Part shown: in pieces, positions 17,477 to 54,339 of the stretch | Layout of the letters: every line of letters begins with the position of its first letter | Numbering within the stretch: the stretch's first letter is position 1 | Assembly: GCF_003050935.1 (NCBI RefSeq) | Contig: NZ_QAOX01000003.1 | Coordinates: 1-64,000 of the forward strand | From: Luteibacter sp. OK325 | GTDB lineage: Bacteria; Pseudomonadota; Gammaproteobacteria; Xanthomonadales; Rhodanobacteraceae | Length of the DNA stretch: 64,000 nucleotides | Reading direction: 5' to 3' | Position numbers and translations under genes: made by a program | Notes under the pieces: model-generated | Seen by the model: only the letters and a program-made list of their open reading frames with translations | Database searches by the model: none | Told to the model about the DNA's origin: nothing

Positions 17477-17551
17477 GGGGATATTCCTTGGGACAATGCC
17501 CAAGGGTGGCTGCCACGGGGCGGCAATTCAAGCGCTGCGGGCAAGCCCCTT

Positions 17552-19652: not shown

Positions 19653-19802
19653 GCAAAGCCCCTTTGGACGTCCGTACGTCCAGACGCCCTGAGCGTACAG
19701 GCCTGGCGAGGGAACGGAAACAGCGAGGGGTGAGGCGACCGGAATTCCGCGGACGTCGCTGCGGACGTGGACGTAGCAGCGCAGAGCGTGACGTCGCGGC
19801 GC

Positions 19803-19945
19803 AGAGCCTTCGGTGCCCACCCTCGCTGCTCAGACAGTCCTCCGCGTTTCGTACCGGAAAGGCCGCTGCGCGGCCCGTGTTCTCACTGGCCTACGGCCGC
19901 TCCACTTGTGCGGAACTCGCCTCGAGGGTGGGCACCGAAGGCTCT
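19803..19945 (+). repeat. unit L of composite element copy 1
   Basis: 143 bases bounded by a perfect 23-base terminal inverted repeat (AGAGCCTTCGG... and its complement). Its interior is nearly the reverse complement of unit R: a 30-base block around CTCAGACAGTCCTCCGC and a 45-base block around CACTTGTGCGGAACTCGCC are shared almost without change. Confidence 0.88.
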
Positions 19946-19998
19946 CCCGAGCCCTGAGGTTCGTGTGGGTCGAGCCAAAGCGTGTGGCAGCATCGTCC

Positions 19999-20038
19999 GC
20001 AGGCACGCAGGCACGCAGGCACGCCGGCACGCCGGCAA
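19999..20038 (+). repeat. five 8-base tandem repeats in the spacer
   Basis: GCAGGCAC three times, then GCCGGCAC and GCCGGCAA. The matching place in copy 2 of the element (about 52528-52560) has only degenerate traces, so the spacer centre is fast-changing while its edges are conserved. Confidence 0.8.
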
Positions 20039-20168
20039 AGGCGCGGGGGAACGTGATCGGCACGGGTACCAGCCATCGCTTTCGCATGGGCCAGGAGTTC
20101 CGCGAGCGACCGGGGCCGACGACGGCACCACGCAACGGCTCGCCTTTCACTCGACCGTATCGTCGTGA

Positions 20169-20308
20169 GAGGCCTTGGTGTCCACCCTCGAGGCGAGTTC
20201 CGCACAAGTGAGCGGCCGTAGGCCAAATAGACACATGGGCCGCGTGAGCGGCCTTCCGATCCGAACGCGGAGGACTGTCTGAGCAGCGAGGGTGGACACC
20301 AAGGCCTC
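20169..20308 (-). repeat. unit R of composite element copy 1
   Basis: 140 bases, inverted relative to unit L. Its own 22-base terminal inverted repeat is perfect (GAGGCCTTGGTGTCC... and complement) yet differs from that of unit L at several positions on both ends, so each unit has kept its ends able to pair. Confidence 0.88.
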
Positions 20309-20437
20309 CCCCGCGAGACGCCCAAGTGTAGAGAGCGATGGCGAAGCCGAGCCATGCGCGAGGTGCGAGGTGCGAGGTGCGAAAGAATGCACGGCCTGAA
20401 AGCTGAGCGCCCGGCCCCGGTAATCCGCGAAGAACCT

Positions 20438-20469
20438 AAAAAAAAGAGCCCGGCTTTCGCCGGGCTCCT
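20438..20469 (-). terminator. intrinsic terminator of the OmpA-family gene
   Basis: On the minus strand GAGCCCGGC-GAAA-GCCGGGCTC is followed by a run of eight T. It begins 27 bases after the stop codon of the gene at 20497. Confidence 0.92.
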
Positions 20470-20496
20470 TTCGTGCAACTACCGATCTTTAACGGA

Positions 20497-21591
20497 TTAC
20501 TGCTGAACCTGCAGTTCCGTACGACGGTTACGAGCGCGGCCTTCGGCCGTGTCGTTCGTGTCGATCGGGTTGTTCTCGCCGTGACCGATCGGGCCTTCCA
20601 GACGGTCGGCACCGATGCCGTGAGCCGTGAGGTAGTCGAACACGATCTTGGCGCGACGCTCGGACAGACCCTGGTTGTAAGCGTCCTTACCGACGCTATC
20701 CGTGTAACCGGCAACCGTGACCTTGACGGTCGGGTAACGCTGCAGCGTATCGACAGCCTGGTCGAGGACGCCCAGCGATTCGCTGGTCGGCTCCTGCAGG
20801 GTCGGGCCGATGTTCGTCTCGCCCTTCTTCGGACGGTCGAACTTGAAGTTGACGCCGCGCAGGTCGATGACGACCTTCTGCGGGCAACCATCCGGACCGA
20901 CGATCGTGCCAGCCGGCGTGGCCGGGCACTTGTCGTCGCAATCGTTCACGCCATCGCCATCGCTGTCGAGGGTGGAGCAATCCGGAGCGGCCGGGGCCGG
21001 TGCAACGGCCGGAGCCGGAGCTGCCGGCGGCTCGCCGAAGCGCGAGACGATCGAGAAGCCGAGGAACCAGTCGCCGTAGCCGTTCTCGCTACGAATGGTC
21101 TTGTCGTCCCAGTCGTAACGGTAGCCGGCTTCCACGCGGAAGTCGGAGCTGTCGGTGATGGTCTTGGACACGCCGACGCCGAGCTCGGCGGCCGGGGCCC
21201 AACCCTTGTCTTCCGGGTTGTGGTGGTAAGCACCCATCACACCGGCGAGCAGGTACGGACGCCAGCTGTCCCACGCACCAGCGTAGAAGCGGGCGGCAAC
21301 GCCGTAGCTGTTGCTCGACCAATGACCGTTCGCATCGTTGTCGCGCTTGGTGCGGTCGGCAAAGATGTCGATCGAGGCGTTGTTCGAAATGAACTTGCCA
21401 ACGCCCAGACCATAGTAGGCCTGACGCGAGTTGGTGTTGCGGTCGGTATCGTTGTAGTAACCGCCAACCGTCGGGGCGACGTACCAGCGGCCGTCATAGC
21501 CGTTACCCGCGTCAGCGGATTCCTGCGCGTGAACGGCACCCACGCCGCCCAGGGCCAAGCCGATCAGCAAAAACAAGCCCTTACGTTTCAT
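20497..21591 (-). CDS. OmpA-family outer-membrane protein
   Basis: A 364-residue protein with a signal peptide (cleavage after VHAQ), an N-terminal 8-strand barrel-type region (residues 25-190; '[17 protein letters not shown]', '[16 protein letters not shown]'), an Ala/Pro linker, one calcium-binding thrombospondin-3-like repeat '[15 protein letters not shown]', and the OmpA peptidoglycan-binding domain (about 250-364; '[19 protein letters not shown]', '[22 protein letters not shown]'). Such proteins anchor the outer membrane to the wall. The start follows AGGAGA. A strong terminator lies downstream and a composite repeat element beyond it. Confidence 0.92.
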
Positions 21592-24243: not shown

Positions 24244-24493
24244 GGCTCGCCTTCGGCATCGCGTTTGCGCTCGCGCCGCGTGGCGTCGCAAGAGCCGGCG
24301 GGTGCCACCCTCGGGGCCGGTAGCGCAGGCGAGGGCTTCGACTGGACAAGGCCCGTCAGGGGGCCGGCCAGGGATGGCCGGCCGCTTTTGGGCGGCCCTT
24401 CCTGTTCGGGTCGCCGCAGTCGTGGCCCCGAGGGTGGCACCCGCCGGCTCTTGCGACGCACCGCGAGCCCAAACGCAATGCCGTAGGCGAGCC
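24244..24493. repeat. long inverted repeat between terC and an outer-membrane protein gene
   Basis: Arms at 24244-24318 and 24424-24493 are reverse complements over about 70 bases; the inner 34 bases match perfectly (including CGCAAGAGCCGGCGGG). The 105-base loop contains a further 8-bp palindrome pair, GGCCGGCC-N6-GGCCGGCC (24362-24383). It lies at the convergent junction of two genes, just outside the terminator at 24523. Inner ends carry CCACCCTCGGGG / CCCCGAGGGTGG, faintly like the ends of the composite element at 19770, but it is otherwise different. No gene is seen in 24235-24600. Confidence 0.85.
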
Positions 24494-52145: not shown

Positions 52146-52220
52146 TCCGCGCCTGCGGGGCAAAAAATGGTTCATCGCGGAGTCCCGGGGACGCCGAAGG
52201 CTTACGCCACGGCGAGCGCG

Positions 52221-52345
52221 GACGTAGCGGCGCAGAGTCTTCGGTGACGTAGCGGCGCAGAGCCTTCGGTGACGTAGCAGCGCAGAGCCTTCGGTGACGT
52301 AGCAGCGCAGAGCCTTCGGTGACGTAGCAGCGCAGAGCCTTCGGT
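52221..52345 (+). repeat. five 25-base tandem repeats at the left edge of copy 2
   Basis: Five head-to-tail units beginning GACGTAGC(A/G)GCGCAGAG and ending TTCGGT, differing at one or two bases. The last twelve bases of each unit are the outer end of unit L, so the array looks like expansion of the element's edge. Copy 1 has only one full and one shortened unit. Confidence 0.9.
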
Positions 52346-52476
52346 GCCCACCCTCGCTGCTCAGACAGTCCTCCGCGTTTCGTATCGGAAAGTCCGCTGC
52401 GCGGACCATGTTCTGTGTGGCCTACGGCCGCTCCACTTGTGCGGAACTCGCCTCGAGGGTGGGCACCGAAGGCTCT
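52334..52476 (+). repeat. unit L of composite element copy 2
   Basis: 143 bases with the same perfect 23-base terminal inverted repeat as unit L of copy 1 and a small number of internal changes. Confidence 0.88.
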
Positions 52477-52684
52477 CCCGAGCCCTGAGGTTCGCGTGGG
52501 TCGAGCCAAAGCGCGCGGCAGCATCGTCGGCCGGCACATCGGCACGCTGGCACAGGCGCGAGGAAGGTGTTCGGCAACCGGGTGCTAGCAACCGCGTCCG
52601 CATCGCCCCGGTGTTCCGGAAGCGGCCGGGGCCGACGACGGCACCATGCCACGGCTCGCCTTCCACCCAACCGTATCGTCGTGA

Positions 52685-52824
52685 GAGACCTTGGTGTCCA
52701 CCCTCGAGGCGAGTTCCGCACAAGTGGAGCGGCCGTAGGCCAAATAGATACATGGGCCGCGAAGCGGCCTTCCGATCCGAACGCGGAGGACTGTCTGAGC
52801 AGCGAGGGTGGGCACCAAGGTCTC
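52685..52824 (-). repeat. unit R of composite element copy 2
   Basis: 140 bases. Relative to unit R of copy 1 the outer bases GGCC...GGCC have become GACC...GGTC, a paired change that keeps the ends complementary; one mismatch remains in the 22-base terminal repeat. Confidence 0.88.
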
Positions 52825-52873
52825 CCCCGCGAGACGCCCAAGTGTAGAGAGCGATGGCGAAGCCGAGCCATGC

Positions 52874-52908
52874 GCGAGGTGCGAGGTGCGAGGTGCGAGG
52901 TGCGAGGT
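52874..52908 (+). repeat. five GCGAGGT heptamers
   Basis: Perfect tandem array (35 bases) against three units in copy 1. It lies directly beyond the terminator of the DAHP-synthase gene as read on the minus strand. Confidence 0.92.
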
Positions 52909-52914
52909 GCGAAC

Positions 52915-52942
52915 CAAAAAAAGCCCGGCACGAAGCCGGGCT
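52915..52942 (-). terminator. intrinsic terminator of the DAHP-synthase gene
   Basis: On the minus strand AGCCCGGC-TTCG(T)-GCCGGGCT is followed by seven T, 24 bases after the stop codon. Confidence 0.92.

Positions 52943-52965: not shown

Positions 52966-54339
<1,374 letters not shown>

Follow-up and report, generated by a model that had tools for sequence, protein, structure and literature searches.

Introduction

Group IIC introns insert after terminator hairpins. REP/BIME sequences with RAYT are palindromic intergenic repeats, also found in inverted pairs, with units of 20-60 nt. MITEs, exemplified by QMITE2 in Coxiella and by RUP and BOX in pneumococcus, are short, non-coding and multicopy, have terminal repeats and duplications, and yield transcripts that are predicted to fold (reviewed in PMC10969869).

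The window analyzed here, a 64,000-nucleotide stretch of the genome of Luteibacter sp. OK325, contains two copies of a composite element that has features of these systems. A first-pass annotation, made from the letters of the window, had noted a non-coding block at 19770-20382 recurring at 52221-52912 in the same order and orientation, and had called it MITE- or BIME-like. The element family is previously undescribed. Searches of open-access papers found no description of it in Luteibacter and none of either ISL3-derived MITEs or terminator-targeting ISL3 elements.

Results

As the first-pass annotation described, in both copies a minus-strand unit L is separated by a spacer from a plus-strand unit R, which is an inverted L. 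The recurrence is borne out by three direct repeats between the copies, which show 92% identity over 235 nt, 87% over 148 nt and 99% over 136 nt (window repeat comparison). Both copies were correctly located, but the element is longer than was first indicated. With the outer terminal repeats as limits, copy 1 spans ∼19729-20436, with a decayed left end, and copy 2 spans 52169-52908, with an internal deletion in its right end. Copy 1 starts with a decayed left terminal repeat (19729-19750, plus strand), read from the sequence as GGTGAGGCGACCGGAATTCCGCGG versus the consensus GGTTCATCGCGGAATTCCGGGG; this boundary is approximate, because no left match was found at ≤4 mismatches. It is followed by unit L (19800-19948, sense minus and therefore outward; row L001:1513-1661:- of alignment A1, with a fold of -98.7 kcal/mol and z of -8.0), a variable spacer with the conserved edge CCTGAGGTTCGTGTGGGTCGAGC (19949-20164), unit R (20165-20312, sense plus, again outward; 173.7 bits with covariance model R1, E 6.7e-31, fold z -7.7), a right arm with variable GAGGTGC tandem repeats (20313-20414), and a right terminal inverted repeat with 0 mismatches (GGTTCTTCGCGGATTACCGGGG; 20415-20436, minus strand). 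Next to it is the intrinsic terminator (hairpin and T-tract; 20438-20471, minus strand) of an OmpA-family gene (20497-21591, minus strand), the T-tract of which is the insertion site.

Copy 2 opens with a left terminal inverted repeat with 0 mismatches (GGTTCATCGCGGAGTCCCGGGG, preceded by CAAAAAAT; 52169-52190, plus strand). Next come five tandem 25-bp repeats of the edge of unit L (family D3; 52221-52345, plus strand), which include its outer stem edge. Unit L itself (52331-52479, minus strand; unit row L006 - 1525) is followed by a variable spacer (52480-52680), unit R (52681-52828, plus strand; R1 167.5 bits, E 1.1e-29, fold z -8.3) and an internally deleted right arm (52829-52908), whose GCGAACC end, as read from the sequence, lies at an A-tract. 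This plus-strand A-tract, together with the hairpin GCCCGGCACGAAGCCGGGC, belongs to the terminator (52909-52941, minus strand) of a class-II DAHP synthase gene (52966-54339, minus strand) and is the insertion site of copy 2. Each copy is thus located past the terminator of a gene on the minus strand, as had been remarked.

Other repeats are also present in the window. At approximately 24277-24465 there is a solo unit that belongs to a diverged, long class ("family II"); it was recognized as inverted pair I9 and by its genome matches, and has a 42-bp stem. Separately from the composites, the window contains typical REPs such as TGTGGGAGCCGCTTCAGCGGCGATG. REP-like repeats of the form TGTGGGAGCCG[A/C]TTCA[T/G]CGGCGATG occur at 17541, 31997, 32037, 34294, 36271, 40824, 40854, 44280 and 44328; they are scattered and often in tandem, which is typical of REP/RAYT elements.

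The statement that the element is seen twice is correct for the window, but when copy 1 was used as a query ∼35 composites, most of them complete, were found in the genome (4.94 Mb, 21 contigs). This number is a lower bound because contig ends C1:1, C7:1, C10:96, C4:122 and C1:922856 lie in or near element copies. In a joint search of 41 genomes, matches were found in 16/23 genomes of the same genus and 0/18 genomes from other genera. For G021, a further genome with no match in that search, the unit model gave a single weak match, bringing the total to ∼17/23 in the genus. Covariance model R1 matches 8/117 genomes of the bacterial family, all from the same genus, and a GTDB-wide scan with the spacer-edge motif retrieved 19 stretches, 18 of which are from one Luteibacter species and one of which is a short match in a deltaproteobacterial MAG. 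The element family is genus-specific, with no copy found in the other genera searched. A phage or plasmid origin was ruled out, because phages and viral contigs contain no match to the element, whereas plasmids contain only a 7% tandem-repeat match (40 bp, in two Burkholderia plasmids).

Alignment of the copies together with their flanks showed that conservation continues past the coordinates first reported and ends in terminal inverted repeats of 22 bp with the sequence GGTTC[A/T]TCGCGGANTNCCGGGG. The two ends are distinguishable, the left being mostly GGTTCATCGCGGAATTCCGGGG and the right mostly GGTTCTTCGCGGATTACCGGGG. This terminal repeat has 48 matches in the genome at ≤3 mismatches, compared with 0 for a reversed-pattern control. 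Complete composites with both ends measure 651-711 bp in this genome. Among 27 repeat-to-repeat elements, 16 are flanked by exact direct repeats and four more by direct repeats with one mismatch. These target duplications are mostly 8 bp long and A/T-rich, and those that are not homopolymers include the 8-bp AAAAAAGA (L005), CTTTTTTA (L009) and TTTTTCTT (L034), and the 9-mer AAACAAAAA (L246). The elements therefore have the features that define a MITE: terminal inverted repeats, target duplications, a dispersed multicopy distribution and empty sites in relatives. They have no coding capacity of their own, since length differences in units and spacers are not multiples of three and the fold covaries; the same indels and covarying fold rule out a decayed protein-coding gene. 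The view of the first-pass annotation that this is a MITE-like dispersed mobile family with no linked transposase is upheld by the many genomic copies and by their empty counterparts in sister species.

The elements insert into intrinsic terminators, within the T-tract. In the Luteibacter sp. OK325 genome, 28/43 distinct element ends come directly after a T-run of ≥5. Nearly all of these T-runs are preceded by a GC-rich hairpin, with which they form an intrinsic terminator directed towards the element. A further 11/43 ends follow an A-run, the second copy of the tract duplicated on insertion. As background, 0.19% of window positions have such a T-run in the preceding 12 bases. The terminator hairpin of the OmpA-family gene is present, with near-identical sequence, in 23/23 genomes of the genus, with or without the element; ∼10/23 have the element or an element end at the T-tract, and the others have unrelated sequence there. 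In the sister genome G019, the element at this T-tract is in the opposite orientation to copy 1, suggesting that the two inserted independently. At the copy 2 site, G019 has an intact terminator and, like other species, lacks the composite; a deletion remnant is left in G009, and a long-class unit occupies the site in G003 and G007. Orthologous sites in sister species are therefore either empty, as expected for a mobile family, or filled in opposite orientation. Insertion into the T-tract leaves the terminator of the gene intact, and the insert therefore does little harm.

These findings bear on whether the element is mobile at all. It could instead be a BIME-like topological element, or an element of mRNA 3' ends, fixed by host selection, in keeping with the position of most copies downstream of a terminator at the 3' end of a gene. 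However, this is very improbable: the elements have terminal repeats and duplicate their target, and in sister species a given terminator may be empty or hold the element in the reverse orientation. In addition, an element beyond the terminator is outside the normal 3' UTR. The BIME-like label originally proposed does not suit unit size and ISL3-type ends either. The first-pass annotation had overlooked these ends, the 8-bp duplications and the choice of terminator T-tracts as target.

The ends of the composites are shared with autonomous elements of the ISL3 family (L197, L190 and L059/L082). L197, in G244, encodes within 1.3 kb a 406-aa ISL3 transposase (PF01610, E 1.7e-66, with PF13542 and PF14690), the C-terminal residues of which are encoded by the right repeat, and this right repeat matches that of the composite. 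G177 contains a decayed ISL3 element with ends near-identical to those of the composites of G002, and G013 contains an ISL3 element split across two contigs. The ISL3 elements of G013, G177 and G046 are also in terminator T-tracts. These common ends and target suggest that the composites were probably mobilized in trans by an ISL3-family transposase. No ISL3 transposase was found in the Luteibacter sp. OK325 genome, where the sole PF01610 match scores 23.6 bits; weak matches to this domain occur genus-wide (∼21-29 bits) and were judged generic rather than ISL3. The copies in this genome are therefore probably stranded, the putative trans-acting transposase that moved them now being absent. A mobilizer in the same genome is usual for a MITE, but the definition does not require one. 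The ISL3 explanation does not fully cover the species with no clear GGTTC end. In G001, G010 and G007 there are units without a recognizable GGTTC end, and most sites of the G001 copies do not adjoin T-tracts, so that either the ends of the copies in these three genomes have decayed or there is another mobilizer. In other genera, L175 (at 1501) and L177 (∼1486-1522) contain 37-bp near-perfect palindromes made of only two ISL3-type ends (GGTTCATCGCG...CGCGATGAACC), the one in L175 sitting between A-tracts. They are possibly the smallest ISL3 derivatives.

Across the genus, the units fall into two classes, a short class of ∼148 nt and a long class of ∼250 nt with an extra hairpin. The second family in the Luteibacter sp. 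OK325 genome, which includes the unit at 24277-24465, corresponds to the long class; about seven other composites in the genome belong to it, in which the first unit is followed by the same shared motif. Alignment A1, consisting of 57 non-redundant short units, yields a consensus fold of 39 pairs in four helices, with 98.5% of cells paired. Changes on both sides, i.e. compensatory, are seen at 15/39 pairs, and none of 500 shuffles reaches any of the measures. In a control in which partners were slid, pairing fell to 40-49%. The sense strand shows an asymmetry, with 36 G-U wobbles against 6 A-C mismatches, counted as pair-by-genome events that are not independent, shared descent making the nominal p value too small. 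The excess of G-U over A-C is found whichever chromosome strand carries the unit (36:7 and 19:1), which rules out a chromosome-strand mutation bias as its cause. In addition, the single-stranded bulges and loops GAGGCGAGTTCCGCACAAG and GAACGCGGAGGACNTGTCTGAGCAG are nearly invariant across the genus in A1. No Rfam family scored above its gathering score in the window, and at E ≤5 the units had no match, nearly all matches being to the terminator hairpin. The suggestion of the first-pass annotation that the element might have its own RNA agrees with the wobble bias, but a consensus scan of the element revealed no sigma-70-like promoter. Compensatory changes thus preserve the fold on one strand, and the wobble bias is strand-specific, which suggests selection on a folded single strand, either RNA or ssDNA.

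The order of the units is always (-,+), so that both sense strands read outward from the spacer, and this pair is retained across species although spacers vary from ∼150 to 1500 bp. Some spacers contain foreign IS genes, such as an IS110-family transposase (L232:940-1935) and an IS30-like integrase-core transposase (L236:437-1888), in G001 and G007. These IS genes are unrelated and differ between the spacers. They are therefore later insertions, and a gene between the units as the real element was rejected. In 45 composites, a mean of 0.2 and 0.1 of the 23 outer-stem pairs are broken within a unit, whereas the two units of one element differ from each other at 4.1 of 23, 2.9 of which are compensated on both sides. 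The conserved fold is therefore that of each unit on itself, and the L and R stems are kept distinct in most species. The earlier proposal of a stem of ∼140 bp formed by L with R is not supported, given the compensated L/R differences and intact self-pairing. Solo units arose by recombination between the 14-bp direct repeats with which L and R begin, and two copies have lost unit L at micro-homologies.

Such a pattern could in principle arise with no function for the units. Template-switch correction of DNA hairpins can also produce covariation in palindromes in the absence of selection, and the units could be relics of an old nested insertion in a passive MITE, with compensatory changes produced by this quasipalindrome correction. 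The formation of solo and unit-less copies by deletion at direct repeats or micro-homologies, as for dispensable DNA, and a mobilizer no longer in the genome speak for this explanation, yet we consider it rather unlikely, given the near-invariant single-stranded bulges and loops, the one-strand excess of G-U over A-C on both chromosome strands, and the persistence of the (-,+) pair despite such variable spacers. In particular, the wobble asymmetry makes a template-switch origin less probable. Alternatively, the units could be ssDNA hairpins recognized by another transposase or recombinase (attC-like or REP/RAYT-like), independently of ISL3. Strand-specific conservation of a fold fits ssDNA and RNA equally, and many units are in species without GGTTC ends. 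This proposal is nevertheless distinctly unlikely, since the units occur in inverted pairs inside elements with ISL3-type ends and 8-bp duplications, are not matched in phages or viral contigs (with only the tandem-repeat match in plasmids), and have no attC-type GTTRRRY/RYYYAAC boxes at their ends as assessed by inspection of A1. On the basis of the wobble bias, near-invariant loops and outward polarity, an RNA read outward is the most likely predicted form of the folded strand, and ssDNA during mobilization is less likely.

Discussion

Taken together, our findings make it likely that the window contains two members of a genus-specific, non-autonomous MITE-like family (∼0.65-0.71 kb when complete in this genome) with ISL3 ends and a T-tract target, carrying two outward, self-folding modules under folded-strand selection. 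The mobile part of this explanation, i.e. a MITE-like element with ISL3 ends that targets terminator T-tracts, is well supported. Each element presents two 148-nt modules (250 nt in the longer class), directed outward from a variable spacer, and each module would act as a folded single strand, with outward-read RNA favored over ssDNA formed in mobilization. More tentatively, the divergent units could represent large structured RNAs of a new class (148 and 250 nt) within a terminator-targeted transposon family, in which compensatory changes would keep the L and R stems different and so make each unit pair internally rather than with its partner.

A DNA transposon family with terminator T-tracts as landing sites can spread in a compact genome while leaving both genes and terminators intact. 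Because there are dozens of covarying, strand-specific folds per genome, the idea of a selected RNA in a MITE is directly testable. A selected RNA would represent a multicopy bacterial non-coding RNA of a new kind; otherwise, the units would be a good natural case of palindrome upkeep without function.

The composite resembles several known systems and is identical to none of them. It has in common with group IIC introns the use of terminators as safe landing sites, but it has the ends and duplications of a DNA transposon and no intron or reverse transcriptase. Like REP/BIME with RAYT, it consists of palindromic, intergenic repeats in inverted pairs, but its units of 148-250 nt are far larger. 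With MITEs (PMC10969869) it shares all the features listed above, whereas its two opposed, internally covarying units, variable spacer and strict terminator T-tract target set it apart, and it is longer than is typical. TIMEs (PMC4133298) and SPRITE elements (named in PMC10969869) have a similar mosaic, non-autonomous build and an association with terminator-like sequences, but the composite differs from them in its ends, and its terminator is that of the host gene, which is retained. Finally, the 22-bp terminal repeats and 8-bp A/T-rich duplication are like those of ISL3-family IS (the IS204/IS1001/IS1096/IS1165 group; PF01610, PF13542 and PF14690), and those of related genomes also share the terminator T-tract location. 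Unlike these IS, the composite has no transposase and an unrelated interior, with only the terminal repeats in common.
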